Source: Janthinobacterium sp. SUN073
Lineage (GTDB): Bacteria > Pseudomonadota > Gammaproteobacteria > Burkholderiales > Burkholderiaceae_D
Direction: 5' to 3'
Assembly: GCF_030397665.1 (NCBI RefSeq)
Contig: NZ_JAPUBT010000003.1
Location: 62,001-126,000 of the forward strand
Length of the DNA stretch: 64,000 nucleotides
The position numbers were made by a program, and so were the translations under genes. Shown here piece by piece: positions 37,763 through 45,977 of the stretch. Below the pieces are notes generated by a model. It had not been told where the DNA came from. It saw only the letters and a list, made by a program, of their open reading frames with translations, and made no database searches. Each line of letters opens with the position of its first letter. Position 1 is the stretch's first letter.

Positions 37763-38389
37763 TCAAGCGCGGCTGGTCAACACTTTGTCGATCAAACCAT
37801 ACTCAACGGCCTCGTCGGCGGACATGAAACGGTCGCGGTCGGTGTCCTTGGCGATCTGTTCGATCGACTGGCCCGTGCGCTCGGCCATGATGCCGTTCAA
37901 GCGGGTGCGCAGGTAAAGGATTTCCCTTGCCTGGATCTCGATGTCGGACGCCATGCCTTGCGAACCACCGGACGGCTGGTGAATCATGATGCGCGAGTTC
38001 GGCAGCGAGAAACGCTTGCCCTTGGCGCCAGCGGCCAGCAGGAAAGCGCCCATCGAAGCAGCCATGCCCGTGCACAGGGTCGAGACGTCCGGCTTGATGA
38101 ACTGCATGGTGTCGTAGATGGCCATGCCGGCCGAGACCGAACCACCTGGCGAGTTGATGTAGAGCGAGATTTCCTTTTCCGGATTTTCGCTTTCCAGGAA
38201 CAGCAGCTGGGCGACAACCAGGTTGGCCATCTGGTCATTGACCGGGCCGACCATGAAAATCAAGCGTTCCTTCAGCAGGCGCGAGTAAATATCATACGAG
38301 CGCTCGCCGCGACCGCTTTGTTCCACCACCATCGGCACCAGGCCGAGCATCTCTGTGTCCAGCGCTGGGTTACGGTTCATACCTGTCAT
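37763..38389 (-). CDS. clpP: ATP-dependent Clp protease proteolytic subunit
   Basis: 208 residues. The catalytic triad is present: Ser112 in GMAASMG, His137 in MIHQPSGG and Asp182 in KDTDRDRF. The N-terminus probably includes a short propeptide ([14 protein letters not shown]). ClpP forms the tetradecameric chamber served by ClpX. It lies between tig and clpX in the conserved order. An unusual inverted-repeat-flanked spacer separates it from tig. Confidence 0.97.
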
Positions 38390-38434
38390 TTCATTTCCTT
38401 GTGAAGCAGTTAGGGGATGCTACCAACACCTTGG

Positions 38435-38554
38435 AACACCAAACAAAACCTACTGCGCGTCGCGATTTGCGGCCTCCGATGCTCACTGTGCATTCGCACA
38501 GCTCCGCTTCTCAGCCACAACTCCCATCCGCTCGCTACGGTTTTTGTTTGGTGT
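38435..38554. repeat. Inverted-repeat-flanked element between tig and clpP
   Basis: AACACCAAACAAAACC (38435-38450) and GGTTTTTGTTTGGTGT (38539-38554) can pair over about 15 bp with one bulge, enclosing about 90 nt. The interior has its own hairpin, CTGTGC-GAAT-GCACAG on the minus strand. No protein frame fits. It could be a structured leader of clpP, a processed RNA or a small mobile repeat. Confidence 0.55.
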
Positions 38555-38588
38555 CAAAGGCAATAATGGCATCCGGATACCAACTGGT

Positions 38589-39929
38589 TTACGCTTGTGC
38601 GTTGCTTCCCATCAGTTCGTCGAAAGCAACTGCTTTCGTCGTGACTTTCGACAGGCCCAACACGTAAGTGACGACGTTTTCTTCCAATACAAGGGCTTCG
38701 ATCTCACCCAGACGACGACGGTCGCTGTAGTAGTACTTCAGCACTTCGCGTGGATCTTCGTAGCTTTGGGCGAAGTCTTCGATTTGCGCCTTGACTTGCT
38801 CAGGCGTCGCCTGCAGGTTGTTGTCGCCCACCAGTTGCGACAGGATCAGGCCCAGGCGTACGCGACGCTCGGCTTTTTCTGCGAACAGTTCTGCTGGGAA
38901 AGGCACGTCCTTGACGTTCATGCCGCGCTGCGCCATGTCTTGACGGGTCATTTCGGCCAGGCGCTCGGAATCTTGAGCGATCAGGGTTTTTGGCACGTCC
39001 AGCTCAGCAACTTTGATCAGCGCGTCCATGACGGCTTCCTTGTTGCGTGCTTTCACGCGGCCAGCGACTTCGCGTTGCAGGTTGACTTTGATGTCTTCGC
39101 GCATTTTGGCCAGGTCGCCATCGGCAACGCCCAGCGATTTGGCGAATTCGGCATCGACTTCCGGCAGGTGCGCCCATTCCAGCTTTTGCAGGGTGATGGT
39201 GAACGAAGCGGTTTTGCCGGCCACGTCCTTGCCATGGTAGTCCTCAGGGAAGGACAATGGGAAAGTCTTCGACTCGCCCACTTTCAGGCCCAGGGTCGCC
39301 GCTTCGAATTCTGGCAGCATGCGGCCTTCGCCCAGCACGAAAGCGTAGCCTTCAGCTTTGCCGCCTGGGAATTCAACGCCGTCGATCGAGCCGACGAAGT
39401 CGACGGTCACGCGGTCGCCGTTGGCAGCGATCGGCTCACCGCCGTCGCCGTGTTCGCCAGCTTCGCCCTTGGTGTGGAAGTGCACGCGCTGCTTGCGCAG
39501 GATATCGATGGTCTTGTCGATTTCGGCTTCCGACACGTCGGCTTGCACGGTTTCGATTTCAACGGCCGTCAGGTCGCCGATGACGACTTCCGGATACACT
39601 TCGAAGGTTGCGTCGAAAGCCAGCTGGCCTTCGACTGCTTCTTCTTTCGGCACGATGTTCGGAAAACCGGCCACGCGCAGATTGTTTTCGTTGGCGGCGT
39701 CGTTGAACGCGCGGCCGACTTTGTCGTTCAGCACTTCGGATTCAATTTGGTAGCCGTATTGTGCTGCGACCATTTTCAACGGCACTTTGCCCGGACGGAA
39801 GCCCGGTGCCTTAGCCGTACGGGCTTGCACTTTCAGGCGCTTCTCAACTTCCGTGCGGACGTCCGTCAGCGGGAAGGAGATCGTGATACGACGTTCGAGT
39901 TTGCCCAAGGTTTCGACTGCAGTTGCCAT
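38589..39929 (-). CDS. tig: Trigger factor
   Basis: 446 residues from the ATG at 39929. The N-terminal ribosome-binding domain carries the signature GFRPGKVP. The middle FKBP-type isomerase domain (about 160-245) includes [16 protein letters not shown], and the C-terminal helical arms complete the chaperone cradle. Trigger factor binds nascent chains at the ribosome exit. It heads the block tig-clpP-clpX-lon. In this genome the space between it and tRNA-Leu is occupied by an opposite-strand peptide and enzyme pair. Confidence 0.97.
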
Positions 39930-40529
39930 GTAAAAAATCGTCCAAAAAATAAACACTGTTGGTGCGAGAAAAGAAGACCCGACCCCTTGCGCCATCACTG
40001 GCGGCAAGACATGGGTCCAGCTTCACTCGCTCGCATATTCATCTGTAAAAGTACTGAAAACAGGACGATGGACCTGGTCTACCCGGCTGAGGGAAAAACC
40101 CGCACCAGGCACCAAACAATCCGCCGCTTCCAGTACTGCGACAGGGCTCCGAGCGTCCAGCCTTGCTTCCAGGTAAATGCAAGGCCGGCCATCATTCGGT
40201 AAAGCGTGGCATTATAACAAAGGACTTCGGGAAAGTGGCTGGCTTTGCAGCCCGGCCACAGAGGATGCCAGCGGCGGCGAATGAATCGCCACAGCCTGGG
40301 TTGCCCTGTCTTTACTCTTGCCCCGGCATTTCTTATTTCGCCAGAGACAGGCTTTCCAGCCTGCTTCGTTCATTAGTATATGCGAACTGTCGCTCCGTCC
40401 GAAACAAAGAAATGCGCTCTTGACGAAGATTTCAGTCAAAAAACCTTTGATTTACCTCAATTTGGCCATTTTTCAGGCAAACCTAAACCGCCGCACGCCT
40501 CTCCAAGTGAATTTAATGGAGAAAATATC
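39930..40529. other. Intergenic region, 600 bp, between tig and the peptide/HExxH locus
   Basis: Divergent spacer that should hold the tig promoter and a plus-strand promoter for the peptide gene. Short frames exist, but none has a ribosome binding site with coding-like composition. The right part (40320-40520) is less GC-rich than the flanking genes, consistent with a regulatory zone. No tRNA or clear hairpin terminator was found. Confidence 0.4.
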
Positions 40530-40712
40530 ATGAGCGATAGCGCACCCGGCGGTTCCAGCAACGCCAAAGCCAAGCTGCAAATGGTCCTCAGCCGCCTGCT
40601 CGACGGCGTAAGCGATGACGACCTGCAGAAAATCCAGACGGAAGTCGATGAAATGGAATTACGCATGCAGGGAGACGGCCATCACGACCATGACCACCCC
40701 ACCGCCGCCTGA
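40530..40712 (+). CDS. 60-residue peptide, possible RiPP precursor
   Basis: The start at ATG 40530 follows GGAG at 40518-40521 with good spacing. Residues 12-47 read as an amphipathic helix (AKLQMVLSRLLDGVSDDDLQ and more) typical of a leader or protein-interaction segment. The tail, residues 48-60, is Gly/Asp/His-rich (GDGHHDHDHPTAA). Its 3' end overlaps the start of the HExxH protein gene by 23 bp, so the two are translationally coupled. The overlap also constrains the tail codons, so part of its composition may be a by-product. A role as modified precursor peptide is inferred from size, layout and the partner enzyme; an adaptor role is an alternative. Confidence 0.6.
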   Translation: MSDSAPGGSSNAKAKLQMVLSRLLDGVSDDDLQKIQTEVDEMELRMQGDGHHDHDHPTAA

Positions 40713-42243
40713 TCCGGCAGTGGCTGCGCTTACTGCGCTTGACGTGCGTGCCGCGCCACCGGATGCAGACGTGCTGGCCGCCGTGGAAACGGCACTGGTG
40801 ACCCACCGTGCCTTTAGTGACAGCAACTATATCCGCGACCAGCTGGCCGTCGCCTACCGGCGGCGGCTGCACAAGCTCGGTGGCACCCTGCCCGAGGCGG
40901 AAAGCCTGGCGACGCTGCTGGATGCGGCGCCACCCGCGCGCCAGCGCCAGTTGCTGGGCGACACGGTGCTGCGCTGCGCCGTCCAGCACGCCATGCGCCA
41001 GCTGCAACTGGGCGACGAATACGGCTTGCCTTTGCCGCAATGCGCGGCGCTGTTCCGGGCGGCGGGCGAGCACCTGCGCGCGGACTTGCCCGGCGGCCCG
41101 CTGGTGGCCCATTTGCCGCCCTTGGCGCGGCTGCACGACGAAGGCAGCCTGCAGGACGAGGACACGTATATCTGGCATGCCTGGCAGGAAGGCACGCCGT
41201 ATGCGCGCGCTTTTCTTGCCGTGATGGAAGATAACTACGGCGCGCCGCTGGCCACGCCCACGCCACAGGAACGAGCCCTGCTGCGCCGGGGCCTGCGGCT
41301 GCTGGAAACCCTGCTGCCCCGCCTGACGGCCAGCGCGCTTTCTCATGTCCAGTTGATCGCCCTGTTTCCCAAGCTGGGCACGTGGCGCGGCAAGGCGTCC
41401 AGCTCGCAATTTCGCGTCAATGGCAGCGTGTTCCTGAACCAGGAACTGATTGGCAACCCCTGGTGGCTGGCCGAGCACTTGCTGCACGAGTCGCTGCACC
41501 AGAAACTGTACGACTTCCGCCACGGCCACAGCCTGCTGGCGCCCGACTATGCGCGCGACGACGGCGCCAAGGTCTGTTCGCTGTGGAATGCGCCCGATGA
41601 TGACGGCAATCACTATTGGGATGCCCACCGCACCCTGGCTGCCTTTCATGTGTATGTCCACCTGGCCTTGCTGTGCCTGCTGGCCGAGCGGCAGGAAGCG
41701 GCGCTGGCACCACAGTACGGCCCCATCGGCCAGCACATGAGCGGCAGCCGGCGCGCCATCGACCGCGCCCGCTACCTGGGCGAGCAATTGCAAAGCACTA
41801 CCTGGCCGGAGCTGGGACTGGCGGGGCGGCACATGACGCACTGGCTGCTCGATGTGCTCGACGCGCTCGACACGCAGCGGCGTCCCGGCGGCGCTACCCT
41901 GCATCTGCTGCTCGACCTGTACGAGCGCCAGAGCCGCAAGCTCGATACTTATCTCGTGCAGCAGCCGCCGCCGCGCAGCGACACGCTGGGTTTGCAGGCG
42001 CAGCAAGAGTTGGCGATGACGCGGCAGGCACTGCACATGCTGGACAGGGAACTGCCGCCTTCGCCTCCGGCGCGGGAGCACGACTGGCCGCAGGCGCGGC
42101 AACGCGTGTTGCAGGCACTCTGGCCGCTGACGCAAGATGAAACGCTGATGGGAAACACTGGCTACCCGCAGGCGCAGGCGCTGGTTATGCAGATGGTGCA
42201 ACAGTCAAGCCGGCAACTGGCCGCACTGGGCGCTTTGGGCTGA
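40690..42243 (+). CDS. HExxH protein resembling aKG-HExxH-type peptide beta-hydroxylases
   Basis: 517 residues from ATG 40690. The first 230 residues are mostly helical, with no known domain. The C-terminal half holds HLLHESLHQKLYDF with the metal motif H266-E267-x-x-H270. It continues as VCSLWNAPDDDGNHYW, then RTLAAFHVYVHLALL with H320 and H324. The arrangement HExxH, then S-x-W, then an Arg and a hydrophobic His-containing helix resembles the HEXXH peptide-modification family of RiPP clusters, which hydroxylates peptides using Fe and 2-oxoglutarate. A plain zinc peptidase is less likely, since no peptidase-type third-ligand motif is evident. It is coupled to the 60-residue peptide gene, and both lie between tig and tRNA-Leu. 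Confidence 0.62.
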   Translation: MTTPPPPDPAVAALTALDVRAAPPDADVLAAVETALVTHRAFSDSNYIRDQLAVAYRRRLHKLGGTLPEAESLATLLDAAPPARQRQLLGDTVLRCAVQHAMRQLQLGDEYGLPLPQCAALFRAAGEHLRADLPGGPLVAHLPPLARLHDEGSLQDEDTYIWHAWQEGTPYARAFLAVMEDNYGAPLATPTPQERALLRRGLRLLETLLPRLTASALSHVQLIALFPKLGTWRGKASSSQFRVNGSVFLNQELIGNPWWLAEHLLHESLHQKLYDFRHGHSLLAPDYARDDGAKVCSLWNAPDDDGNHYWDAHRTLAAFHVYVHLALLCLLAERQEAALAPQYGPIGQHMSGSRRAIDRARYLGEQLQSTTWPELGLAGRHMTHWLLDVLDALDTQRRPGGATLHLLLDLYERQSRKLDTYLVQQPPPRSDTLGLQAQQELAMTRQALHMLDRELPPSPPAREHDWPQARQRVLQALWPLTQDETLMGNTGYPQAQALVMQMVQQSSRQLAALGALG

Positions 42244-42305
42244 AAAATACGAATTCAGGGAAAATCTTTGATGGTGCTGCACTTCCGGGCTGGAGCAACC
42301 CGGAT

Positions 42306-42388
42306 TGGTGCGGATGGGGAGACTCGAACTCCCAAGCCGAAGCACTGGCTTCTAAGACCAGCGTGTCTACCAATTCCACCACATCCGC
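42306..42388 (-). tRNA. tRNA-Leu (TAG)
   Basis: 83 nt with encoded CCA. Acceptor GCGGATG pairs with CATCCGC, discriminator A. The anticodon loop CTTAGAA gives TAG. A long variable arm (TGCTTCGGCTT) and the T-loop TTCGAGT complete a class II tRNA. It lies upstream of tig in the order conserved in relatives, but convergent to the HExxH gene. Confidence 0.95.
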
Positions 42389-42483
42389 ATTTTGTACTAC
42401 CTTGTACTACTTGCTCCCCTGATTTTAACAACTCGGGAGCGATCTGGCTACCGTGGACTGATAGAGCAAGCCCTCGGTAAAGC

Positions 42484-42526
42484 AAAGGCGGCATTCTACT
42501 GGATTTCCCAGAGGAATGCCGCCTTT
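42484..42526 (+). terminator. Strong hairpin terminator
   Basis: AAAGGCGGCATTC (42484-42496) pairs with GAATGCCGCCTTT (42514-42526) over 13 bp and is followed by further T residues on the plus strand. It can end plus-strand transcription from the HExxH gene. It also lies upstream of tRNA-Leu on the other strand. Confidence 0.75.
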
Positions 42527-42572
42527 TTTTGCTGTGCCTCAGAGCGCGCCACCGGTCAGTGGGCGGCATTTT

Positions 42573-42640
42573 TACCCCAAAAGCAAGCACTGGGGTCGTA
42601 CCCTGAGGGTACGACCCCGGCATTTTCGCCGTTCGGGTGA
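42573..42640. repeat. Dispersed nested-palindrome element, copy C
   Basis: The core at 42592-42618 has arms GGGGTCGTACCC / GGGTACGACCCC around TGA. The outer arms are TACCCCAA on the left and TTCGGGTG on the right. The two bases that differ from copies A and B in one arm are matched by complementary changes in the other. Confidence 0.75.
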
Positions 42641-42675
42641 GTGGCGTACGCGCCAGGTGGGCGCGCTCCAGGGCA

Positions 42676-42866
42676 TTACACAGCTGGCGTACTCGCTTCT
42701 CTTGCCGCTGGCTCCGGCTTCTTGACCCGGAACCAGGCCGCATACAGCGCCGGCAGGAACAGTAAAGTCAAGGCCGTCGCCAGGATCAGGCCGCCCATGA
42801 TGGCGACTGCCCTGCGTGATCCCCCCAGAACACGGAGTGCGACAGCGGGATCATGGCCAGCGCGGA
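42676..42866 (-). pseudogene. Truncated 3' fragment of an RND pump gene
   Basis: About 190 bp closely matches the 3' end of the intact RND permease gene just upstream on the same strand. Both encode ILATALTLLFLPALYAAWF followed by RVKKPE. The fragment has a different C-terminal tail (PAAREASTPAV then TAA at 42676-42678) and an internal 4-nt length difference that shifts the frame. Homology stops abruptly near 42866. It is a partial duplication or the remains of a second pump gene after deletion. Confidence 0.8.
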
Positions 42867-42878
42867 GGAATTGCTTGC

Positions 42879-45800
42879 TTAGCTCCCTCCTTTGCCCACC
42901 GCCTCCGGCTTCTTGACCCGGAACCAGGCCGCATACAGGGCCGGCAGGAACAGTAAAGTCAAGGCCGTCGCCAGGATCAATCCGCCCATGATGGCGACCG
43001 CCATCGGGCCCCAGAAGACGGAGCGCGACAATGGAATCATGGCCAGCGCGGCGGCGGCGGCCGTCAGCACGATGGGACGGCAGCGGCGCACGGCCGAGTC
43101 GATGATGGCATCCCAGGGAGCCGAGCCATCGTTGATGTCTTGCTCGATCTGGTCGACGAGGATCACCGAGTTGCGGATGATCATGCCGAACAGCGCGATG
43201 ATGCCCAGGTTGGCCACAAAACCAAGTGGCCGGCCCAGCGCCAGCAAGGCAAAGGCAGCGCCCGCCACGCCCAGCGGCCCCGTCAGGAAGACCAGCAAGG
43301 AACGCGAGAAACTGTGCAGCTGCAGCATCAGCAAGGTGAAGATGATGAAGATGGCCAGCGGCAGGTTGGTCGCGATCGACGCTTCCGCCTCGCCGCTATC
43401 GGCCGCCACGCCCTTCACGGTGATGCGGTAGCCGTCCGGCATTTTGGCCCGCAAGGCATCGAGCTGCGGCGCCAGCTGCGTCGAGACCGTCGCGCCCTGG
43501 ATGCCGTCGACCACGTCCGATTGCACGGTAATCGCCCATTCGCGCTTGTCGCGCCAGACCACGCCCGGTTCCCACACGAAATGCACGCGGGCCAGCTGCG
43601 AGATGGGCACGGACTTGCCCGTTGCCGTCGGGATGTTCGTGTCATTCAGCACGGAAATCGTCGCCCGCTCCTCCAGCGGCTGGCGCACCTGGATATCGAT
43701 CAGCTTGTTGTCTTCGCGGAACTGGCCGATGACGGTGCCCGACAGTATCGTATTGGCCGCCTGCATCACGGTTTTCGAGGTGACGCCCAGCGCACGCATC
43801 TTGTCCTGCTCCAGGTCCAGGCGCAGCACTTTCACCGACTCATTCCAGTTATCGTTGACACCCAGGGTGTTCGGATTGGCGCGCATGATGTCCTTGACCT
43901 GGTCGGCGATGGCGCGCACGCCCGCCACTTCCGGCCCCGTGACGCGGAATTGCACGGGATACGGCACGGGCGGTCCGTTCGGCAACAGTTTTACCCTGCC
44001 CCGCACTTCCGGGAAATCCTTCTTGAAGACATCGATGATCTTCTGGCGCAGCTGCTCGCGGTCCGCCTGGCTCTTCGGCAGGATCACCACTTGCGACACA
44101 TTGGTCTGCGGGAAGATCTGGTCCAGCGGCAGGTAGAAACGGGGACTGCCCGTGCCCACATAGCTGGTGATGCTGTCCACTCCGTCGAGCTTGCTGACGA
44201 AGGCCTCGAATTTCTTCACCTGCTTTTCATTCGCGGCAAAGGTCGTGCCTTCGGGCGACCACAGTTCCACCATCAGTTCCGGGCGGCTGGAATCGGGGAA
44301 GAATTGCTTTTCGATAAAGTTAAAGCCGTAAATGCCCAGCGCAAAGATGGCCAGGGTGGCGGCAATGGTCGTCTTGCGCCATTCCACGCACCAGGTGACG
44401 GCGCGGCGGAAGCGGCGGAAGTTCGGCGTATCGAACAATTCATGGTCGTTATGCGCGTGCGGCTTGACCTTCAACAAGACATAGCCGATATAGGGCGTGA
44501 AGACGACGGCCACCACCCACGAAATGATCAGGGCCAGTGCATTCACGGAGAACAGGGAGAACGTGTATTCGCCGGCGGCCGACTTGGCCAGGCCGATGGG
44601 TAAAAAGCCCGCCACCGTGATCAGGGTGCCCGTCAGCATGGGCATGGCCGTCGACGTGTAGGCGAACGTGGCCGCGTCGAAGCGCGACATGCCCTCCTCC
44701 ATCTTGCGCACCATCATTTCGACGGCAATGATGGCGTCATCGACCAGCAAGCCCAGCGCGATGATCAGGGCGCCCAGCGAGATCTTGTGCAAATCGATGT
44801 CGAGCAGGCGCATGAACAGGAAGGTGACGGCTAGCACCAGCGGGATGGTCAGCGCCACCACCAGGCCGGGCCGCACGTCGATGCGCAGCGGTTTCGTGTG
44901 CAAGCCCAGCGCGACAAAGCTGACGGCCAGCACGATCAAAATGGCTTCGACCAGGGTATGCACGAACTCGCCCACGGAAGCGGACACGGCTTCCGGCTGG
45001 TTTGACACGCGCTGCAACTCTATGCCGACCGGCAATTCACTCTTCATGCGCGTCACCGTTGCCTGCAAGGCCTTGCCCATGTCGATGATGTTGCCGCCCT
45101 TTTCCATCGATACGCCCAGGCCGATCACTTCCTTGCCATTGAAACGCATCTTGTCCTTCGGCGGATCGACGAATTCGCGTTTCACGGTGGCAAAGTCACC
45201 GAGGCGGAAGGTGGTGCCGTTGGCGCGCAGCTCCAGGTTTTCCAGGTCCTTGACGGTAAGCATGGCGCCCGTCACGCGCACTTGCAGGTTATCCGTCGGC
45301 GTCACCAGCACGCCCGTGGCGTTGATGCTGTTTTGCTCGGACAATTGCTGCACGATGGCGTCAAAAGGGATGCCCAATTGGGCGAATTTCTTGTGCGAGA
45401 AGATGATATTGATCTTTTCGTCTTGCACGCCGAACAGTTCCACCTTCGACACCTGCCCCACGGCCAGCAGTTCCTGTCGCACCTTGTCCGCGTAATCCTT
45501 CATTTCCGCGTAAGTAAAACCGTCGCCAGACAGGGCGAAGATGGAACCATACGTGTCGCCGAACTCGTCATTGAAGAACGGGCCCACGACGCCGGCCGGC
45601 AAGGTGCCCTTGATGTCGCCGATCTTCTTGCGCACCTGATACCAGGCGGCCGCTGTTTCCTTGGGCGGCGCCGATTCGCGCAGTTCCAGCAAAATCAAGG
45701 TTTCGCCGGGCTTCGAATAACTGGTGATTTCATTGATGTAGGGCGTTTCCTGCAGCTTCTTTTCCAGCTTGTCCGTCACTTGCTCGGCCATCTGCAGCGC

Positions 45801-45977
45801 CGTGGCGCCGGGCCAGTACGCCTGCAAGACCATGGCACGGAAAGTAAACGGGGGATCTTCATCCTGGCCCAGGCTGGCATAGCTGAGCATGCCGCCGATC
45901 AGCAGCACGGCCATCAGGTAGCGCGTCAGCGGGATGTGTTCGAGGGCCCAGCGCGACAGATTGAAGCCGCCCTTCAT
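42879..45977 (-). CDS. RND efflux transporter permease
   Basis: 1032 residues, full length for the AcrB/HAE-type superfamily. There is one N-terminal helix, two large periplasmic loops and two bundles of helices. The proton-relay helix is visible as LGLLVDDAIIAVEMM with the paired aspartates. The C-terminus ends in the conserved FLPALYAAWFRVKKPE block. It exports unknown substrates driven by the proton gradient. Its ATG overlaps the stop of the adaptor gene by 4 bp. No outer-membrane channel gene is adjacent. A broken copy of its 3' end lies just downstream. Confidence 0.92.
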   Translation of the reverse strand: MKGGFNLSRWALEHIPLTRYLMAVLLIGGMLSYASLGQDEDPPFTFRAMVLQAYWPGATALQMAEQVTDKLEKKLQETPYINEITSYSKPGETLILLELRESAPPKETAAAWYQVRKKIGDIKGTLPAGVVGPFFNDEFGDTYGSIFALSGDGFTYAEMKDYADKVRQELLAVGQVSKVELFGVQDEKINIIFSHKKFAQLGIPFDAIVQQLSEQNSINATGVLVTPTDNLQVRVTGAMLTVKDLENLELRANGTTFRLGDFATVKREFVDPPKDKMRFNGKEVIGLGVSMEKGGNIIDMGKALQATVTRMKSELPVGIELQRVSNQPEAVSASVGEFVHTLVEAILIVLAVSFVALGLHTKPLRIDVRPGLVVALTIPLVLAVTFLFMRLLDIDLHKISLGALIIALGLLVDDAIIAVEMMVRKMEEGMSRFDAATFAYTSTAMPMLTGTLITVAGFLPIGLAKSAAGEYTFSLFSVNALALIISWVVAVVFTPYIGYVLLKVKPHAHNDHELFDTPNFRRFRRAVTWCVEWRKTTIAATLAIFALGIYGFNFIEKQFFPDSSRPELMVELWSPEGTTFAANEKQVKKFEAFVSKLDGVDSITSYVGTGSPRFYLPLDQIFPQTNVSQVVILPKSQADREQLRQKIIDVFKKDFPEVRGRVKLLPNGPPVPYPVQFRVTGPEVAGVRAIADQVKDIMRANPNTLGVNDNWNESVKVLRLDLEQDKMRALGVTSKTVMQAANTILSGTVIGQFREDNKLIDIQVRQPLEERATISVLNDTNIPTATGKSVPISQLARVHFVWEPGVVWRDKREWAITVQSDVVDGIQGATVSTQLAPQLDALRAKMPDGYRITVKGVAADSGEAEASIATNLPLAIFIIFTLLMLQLHSFSRSLLVFLTGPLGVAGAAFALLALGRPLGFVANLGIIALFGMIIRNSVILVDQIEQDINDGSAPWDAIIDSAVRRCRPIVLTAAAAALAMIPLSRSVFWGPMAVAIMGGLILATALTLLFLPALYAAWFRVKKPEAVGKGGS

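Follow-up and report, generated by a model that had tools for sequence, protein, structure and literature searches.

HExxH oxygenases are a recently recognised class of enzymes, described in PMC13060819 as Fe/α-ketoglutarate (aKG) oxygenases that β-hydroxylate His, Asp, Phe, Gln or Pro residues of peptides, and as enzymes for which the reaction cannot yet be predicted. Among the members covered by two reports, ChlBH hydroxylates His and Asp, PosC and PflC hydroxylate Gln, and PesO hydroxylates Pro (PMC12636437, PMC13060819). ChlBH is reported to need a cyclophane previously installed by its radical SAM part, while PosC and PflC are described as leader-dependent and as cleaving the peptide backbone besides hydroxylating it (PMC12636437). 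Two of the modified residues have a described use in another context, since β-hydroxy-Asp and β-hydroxy-His are given as chelating groups of non-ribosomal siderophores (PMC12971057).

We analysed a 64,000-nucleotide stretch of DNA (the window) from the soil bacterium Janthinobacterium sp. SUN073, which carries a two-gene unit consisting of a gene for a 60-residue peptide followed by a gene for an HExxH enzyme. In the literature on HExxH enzymes and RiPPs that we searched, we found no description of this peptide–enzyme pair. As in the case of ChlH (TIGR04267/IPR026337, PDB 8s5f), an HExxH domain is encoded with a small peptide gene beside it, and the Asp and His residues that ChlBH is reported to hydroxylate (PMC12636437) are the residues proposed to be hydroxylated here. 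Unlike ChlBH, which depends on a preinstalled cyclophane, the cassette has no radical SAM partner. The Pseudomonas enzymes PosC and PflC, as described in PMC12636437, likewise act on a stretch of similar residues close to the C-terminus of a peptide with a folded leader, and their clusters are described without a protease gene, as is the case here. Their target is, however, a Gln run with ARMD rather than a His/Asp run, and pfl adjoins MNIO-nitroreductase, GNAT and transporter genes, whereas our cassette contains nothing else (PMC12636437). The siderophores of PMC12971057 carry the same two hydroxylated residues as expected here, but they are non-ribosomal and their hydroxylases are described as belonging to other Fe/aKG enzyme families. 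Metal-chelating peptides have further been described among the bufferins and other MNIO-modified peptides. These are made by a different enzyme family and rely on Cys-based chemistry.

If the proposal holds, one enzyme and one peptide would provide a very simple test system for residue choice by HExxH enzymes, in which no other modifying gene is present in the cassette and a counterpart from another phylum keeps the His/Asp tail. It would also show whether ribosomal peptides can carry siderophore chelating groups.

A two-gene cassette at the tig/tRNA-Leu site

As the earlier note had reported, the pair lies between tig, encoding trigger factor (38589..39926, minus strand), and tRNA-Leu(tag) (42306..42388, minus strand), both of which are flanks outside the system. 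The tig gene was present in 40/40 genomes of the genus, and the tRNA gene followed the enzyme gene in 17/17 loci. Comparison with empty tig/tRNA-Leu sites set the borders of the two-gene cassette at 40485..42267 (no strand assigned). The cassette was present at this site in 17 of 40 genus genomes and absent from 22; in the remaining one, G037, the contig begins within tig, and this genome was therefore placed outside the presence/absence count. The peptide–enzyme pair adjoined tig in all 17 loci, and the peptide gene lay directly 5′ of the enzyme gene wherever upstream DNA was available (17/17 genus loci); within the genus the peptide is thus kept in enzyme-carrying relatives, as the pairing in the earlier note presupposed. 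Seven named loci, overlapping partly with the 17, had the same gene order; all seven are from Janthinobacterium, which we therefore take to be the genus of the 40 genomes.

The enzyme was present in 18/40 Janthinobacterium genomes. In the 18th, G023, the contig stops a few bases from a partial enzyme match and tig is on another contig. Locus L107 (G023 contig 15, 2720-3241, minus strand) encodes the C-terminal part of a divergent enzyme relative, about 37-44% identical, and apparently represents a second location for the enzyme, away from G023's own empty tig/tRNA-Leu site.

The neighbours tig and tRNA-Leu occurred without the cassette in 22 genomes, 14 of them aligned and examined, with eight more that include G023. 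At 12/14 aligned empty sites the left flank matched the window (92-99% identity) to ~40484 and the right flank from ~42268, with ~120-170 bp replacing the 1.78 kb cassette, while at the empty sites L093 and L095 the left flank alone was matched, at 81-82%. The left flank of the empty site in G038 was 99.3% identical to the window. On a tig tree, which represents one conserved gene and has weak resolution, cassette presence changed at least eight times, compared with a mean of 13.0 for shuffled labels (eight or fewer changes in 0.005 of 1000 shuffles). Because changes are this numerous and yet fewer than the shuffle mean, the cassette is, as judged from this tree, partly inherited, yet repeatedly gained or lost.

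In a sample of the family (294 genomes, 44 genera) the enzyme profile matched 13 genomes and the peptide profile the same 13, all Janthinobacterium; therefore one linked unit was counted, not two independent events. An enzyme profile of 11 genus rows matched its own genome alone among 321 genomes of the class, and among 349 genomes of the phylum a 5-row enzyme profile gave, besides its own genome, a single weak fragment match in G1181 (E 4.5e-4). No match was found in the phages and viral contigs searched.

The segment between tig and the cassette (39927-40484) is long, 92-99% conserved in 12/14 empty-site genomes, and common to empty sites. Rfam searches of 38300-43000 returned the tRNA and one match far under the gathering score, and no match in 39927-40484. 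No sigma-70-like promoter was found on the plus strand of 40150-42600, no iron-box pattern with up to three mismatches was found in the whole window, and PADLOC gave no defence-system match for the cassette. Within the cassette there was likewise neither a further RiPP gene nor a gene for an exporter or a protease, in line with the observation in the earlier note that neither of the latter two is adjacent; the AcrB-type efflux gene at 42879-45977 lies beyond the tRNA, on the opposite strand and outside the cassette. Protease and exporter genes are usual, not obligatory, and since the cassette has neither we call the locus RiPP-type rather than a proven RiPP.

The enzyme matches the aKG-HExxH peptide β-hydroxylase family

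The larger gene (40690..42243, plus strand, 517 aa) was assigned as an aKG-HExxH-type peptide-modifying enzyme by a TIGR04267 match and a profile–profile match. By NCBIfam hmmscan the enzyme matched TIGR04267 (aKG-HExxH peptide beta-hydroxylase) with E 4.7e-9 and 36.5 bits, so that the family named in the earlier note was recovered by E value, but with a whole-protein score under the cut-off of 40 bits. In a six-frame search the score was 39.7 bits, or 40.2 with neighbours, flagged as over the cut-off. TIGR04267 matched 11/11 members of the genus enzyme alignment (best E 2.2e-10), and scored 41.6 bits for a Nonomuraea relative (over the cut-off of 40) and 32.8 for a Streptomyces relative (under it). 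The family assignment was further borne out by hhalign, in which the genus enzymes aligned with 11 Burkholderiales family members with 96.6% probability (E 4.7e-10) over enzyme residues 193-327. A profile of these 11 members in turn matched ChlH (PDB 8s5f, E 2.8e-25); their alignment comprises 11/12 loci with a relative outside their own genome, L065, which has no family His, being left out. The enzyme had no Pfam match, and PDB searches with the enzyme alone and with the 11-row profile returned no relevant solved structure. The AlphaFold2 model of the enzyme, built from eight close sequences, was of low confidence (pLDDT 45.2).

HESLH (266-270), S297-L-W299, R314 and AFHVYVHL (318-325), the motifs picked out in the earlier note, were all found in the HExxH ORF. 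We compared them in an alignment of 11 genus rows and in one of five rows (window, L015, L017, Streptomyces, Nonomuraea). H266, E267 and H270 of the HESLH metal site (41485..41499, plus strand) were invariant in both, and the positions shared without exception by the aligned Janthinobacterium, Streptomyces and Nonomuraea enzymes also include W299, N300, W310, R314 and H320. Arg314 (41629..41631, plus strand), invariant in both alignments, is one residue off the R of the family's RPxxGIxH, and His320 (41647..41649, plus strand), likewise invariant in both, is by its motif a candidate further metal ligand. QKLY follows HExxH both in ChlH (HEHRHQKLY) and in the window enzyme (HESLHQKLY). Unlike in ChlH and the family, however, the family SPxR is SLWN in the window enzyme, and the distance from HExxH to the next conserved His is longer, the stretch to H320 exceeding that of ChlH and other members by ~10-14 residues in a manual count. 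SPxR also varies in L061 and L066. In the Burkholderiales family alignment (11/12 loci, L065 left out) the histidine of the RPxxGIxH block, H236, is invariant, and from the motifs we infer that H320 may be its counterpart, no more firmly than this because the two histidines are not matched up in automatic alignments.

A candidate precursor peptide with a conserved His/Asp tail

The candidate precursor peptide (40530..40712, plus strand; 60 aa, MSDSAPGG...GDGHHDHDHPTAA) was defined by its ORF, its conservation and AlphaFold2. The ORF described in the earlier note is thus confirmed, together with its His/Asp tail, and the helical N-terminal part noticed there was predicted by the model. A GGAG motif ends 8 nt before the peptide ATG at 40530, and the peptide matched nothing in NCBIfam and Pfam. 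Compared with the window, peptide dN/dS was 0.00-0.28 in 14/16 comparisons, with 0.60 for L013 and 0.35 for L015; by these ratios the peptide is under purifying selection. Enzyme dN/dS was 0.20-0.36 in 16/16 comparisons, and we take both genes to be real because they are conserved at the protein level.

AlphaFold2, run with seven close sequences, placed helices at residues 9-24 and 29-51 in a helical hairpin (mean pLDDT 78.1). Block means of pLDDT were 90-95 for residues 11-40, 82 for 41-50 and 56 for the last ten residues. The predicted helical hairpin is the putative leader, and the His/Asp tail is predicted to be flexible.

The tail GHHDHDHPT was unaltered in 15/17 loci, and the codons of HHDHDHPT (residues 51-58; 40680..40703, plus strand) showed synonymous changes only in these loci. 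Together with the second helix, the tail is the best-kept part of the peptide. Its H/D run is the sole six-residue stretch made of H and D only among 90,767 residues of the six-frame ORFs (≥50 aa) of the window. All 17 peptides were used for the tail and dN/dS counts; the peptide alignment and profile contain 11/17, leaving out L013 (degenerate), L014 (shortened) and the near-duplicates L006, L007, L008 and L011.

In L013 and L014, where the tail is damaged, the enzyme too is damaged or somewhat less constrained, and this favours the reading proposed below. In L014 the tail is two residues shorter and the enzyme is without about its first 184 residues. In L013 the tail is lost and the peptide is little constrained (dN 0.23, dS 0.28 against L012). 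The L013 enzyme keeps HExxH (dN 0.18, dS 0.42 against L012), and its dN/dS against the window is 0.35, compared with 0.20-0.24 for most loci with a similar dS and 0.36 for L017. The L025 peptide is identical to that of L013, its tail being lost and the HExxH of the enzyme kept.

A 23-bp overlap of the two genes had been claimed in the earlier note. An ORF from ATG 40690 does exist, but this ATG is found in 2/17 loci only (the window and L003), whereas in 16/17 loci, all but L011, the frame of the enzyme has an ATG or GTG 7-18 nt past the peptide stop. The enzyme therefore more probably starts at GTG 40720 (507 aa) than at ATG 40690 (517 aa), the genes being adjacent rather than overlapping. 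The tail is intact also in L015-L017, where the first start of the enzyme is 16-18 nt past the peptide stop, so its conservation does not depend on an overlap, a check that the earlier note had suggested. We rejected ATG 40380, which opens a 110-aa frame that includes the peptide, as the start: most of the upstream part of this frame also occurs at empty sites, and in L015-L017 the frame is not preserved as a protein.

A diverged counterpart in Streptomyces

A tblastn search of 72,556 plasmid records identified enzyme relatives in 10 records. The best match was in Streptomyces xanthophaeus, with an enzyme 43.2% identical over 85%, and the other nine records were more distant. Upstream of the S. 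xanthophaeus enzyme is an annotated 67-aa gene whose product ends AGGHHHHHDDDEPDVVDMGEVDQ. Compared with Janthinobacterium, this peptide has a modestly similar leader and a tail GGHHHHHDDDEP; its C-terminal part reads AGGHHHHHDDDEPD..., and the sequence continues past the tail with no Ala like that at the end of the Janthinobacterium tails. When the Streptomyces leader was aligned without its tail to three Janthinobacterium leaders (window, L015, L017), the score was 41 against a shuffle mean of 22.8, a value reached in 0.0008 of 5000 shuffles, with the similarity around VSDDDLQKIQ/VTDEEVKEMQ. When the tail was included, the peptide profile aligned with the Streptomyces peptide without gaps as far as the His run (three targets, E 1e-4; composition bias 6.9 bits); for the leader alone the match was modest, with 3.5 bits and E 0.015 among three targets. 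We consider this counterpart, identified by sequence comparison, to be the strongest new evidence, and it suggests that the tail is the enzyme's target. A long hairpin lies between the S. xanthophaeus peptide and enzyme genes (L108, 7867-7905; z -3.57, 106-nt stretch folded) and could hold back expression of the enzyme.

No other RiPP gene is present in the annotated 17 kb of S. xanthophaeus, while the remaining four of the five plasmid-collection records examined adjoin lanthipeptide or YcaO genes. A Mycobacteroides relative adjoins a YcaO gene. Two Streptomyces relatives, L110 and L111 (FDLD class I lanthipeptide), are ~26% identical over 69% and 34% of the window enzyme, respectively, and have a small ORF upstream as here, but without a His/Asp tail; they differ also in belonging to lanthipeptide clusters, in which LanB, LanC and sulfotransferase genes are present. 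L110 has a weak PqqD-like C-terminus (E 0.1), and L111 is annotated as PqqD family. The Nonomuraea enzyme is 31-35% identical (34.7% by tblastn) and comes from a record labelled plasmid, of 11.85 Mb; downstream there is a LanC-like gene (E 3.3e-45), with a Cys-rich ORF before it that has no Pfam match. The Nonomuraea, S. goshikiensis and S. globosus enzymes are preceded by small ORFs, none of which encodes a His/Asp tail. The Nonomuraea upstream ORF was rejected as a third counterpart, its resemblance being weak (shuffle fraction 0.045 against Janthinobacterium and 0.108 against Streptomyces).

Proposed reaction and alternative explanations

The earlier note had read the pair as a minimal RiPP-type locus, and this reading gains support from the family match, the pairing in 17/17 loci and the tail intact in 15/17. 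We propose that an Fe/aKG oxygenase β-hydroxylates His and/or Asp of the tail, which we regard as the probable explanation of the locus. The helical hairpin of the peptide, with a recognition part around VSDDDLQKIQ, would dock on the enzyme and so bring the flexible tail GHHDHDHPT to an iron that is coordinated by HExxH and perhaps also by His320. The enzyme would then use O2 and α-ketoglutarate to hydroxylate the β-carbons of tail His and/or Asp residues, probably at several positions in succession. The occurrence of a His/Asp tail in two phyla, with the order of letters changed, fits a target of repeated β-hydroxylation. The leader might stay on, or be trimmed by a protease encoded elsewhere. 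Several observations weigh against this reading: the whole-protein TIGR04267 scores under the cut-off, for the window enzyme and for its Streptomyces relative; the missing Pfam match; the longer stretch to H320 and SLWN in the position of SPxR; the dependence of ChlBH on a radical SAM part that the cassette does not have; a cassette free of further RiPP, exporter and protease genes; the retention of HExxH in L013 and L025 after loss of the tail; the modest leader match; and the upstream ORFs of other relatives, which have no His/Asp tail.

A different oxidative reaction of the same family at the tail, either backbone cleavage with amidation at the C-terminal Ala or a cross-link, is unlikely. 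Cleavage of this kind has a precedent in PosC and PflC, reported both to hydroxylate and to cleave oxidatively, PosC at the Ala of ARMD (PMC12636437), and 13/15 intact tails end in Ala. However, it is His, Asp and PT that are conserved; in L015 and L016 Glu takes the place of the terminal Ala, and the Streptomyces peptide, running on past its tail, has no such Ala.

We consider it rather improbable that the peptide is instead a partner or metal chaperone, its tail delivering iron to, or regulating, an enzyme that acts on something else. That the cassette consists of a single enzyme and a single peptide, and lacks genes for processing or export, would agree with such a role, and His/Asp tails bind metal even unmodified. 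On the other hand, a helical leader plus a flexible tail is a usual precursor layout, and this is what the model predicts for the peptide. The intergenic hairpin in Streptomyces (z -3.57) would suit the production of more peptide than enzyme, and characterised HExxH members are reported to act on adjacently encoded peptides (PMC12636437, PMC13060819). A toxin–antitoxin or protease–inhibitor pair, in which a small protein restrains an HExxH zinc peptidase or toxin, could account for a small gene before a larger HExxH gene in a patchy two-gene cassette at a fixed site, and PflC is reported to hydrolyse a truncated peptide (PMC12636437), but this is very improbable given the absence of Pfam and PADLOC matches, the match to the peptide-hydroxylase family TIGR04267, and a tail that is, together with the second helix, the best-kept part of the peptide and has a cross-phylum counterpart.

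Under the preferred reading, β-hydroxylation of the tail, the product most plausibly binds metal through its modified His/Asp residues; this would be its most natural role because β-hydroxy-Asp and β-hydroxy-His are known siderophore chelating groups. Such a role would not prove modification, since the unmodified tail also binds metal. That the locus makes a one-enzyme ribosomal metallophore or metal buffer, with a tail carrying β-hydroxy-His or β-hydroxy-Asp, in Janthinobacterium and, diverged, in Streptomyces, is a tentative and on balance doubtful suggestion.

Small ORFs beside other HExxH genes of the Burkholderiales

Different small ORFs were observed upstream of HExxH genes elsewhere in the order. 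In L066 (G326) tandem ORFs at about 205 and 513 (89 and 84 aa) contain Gln runs that recall the PosC/PflC targets; they have no ARMD, and the N-terminus looks like a secretion signal. L055, L056 and L057 have small ORFs with GAKVG-type repeats (e.g. MREIRLDQSKLYGF...) upstream of their HExxH genes, and these are candidates for a different precursor type next to other TIGR04267 members of the order.
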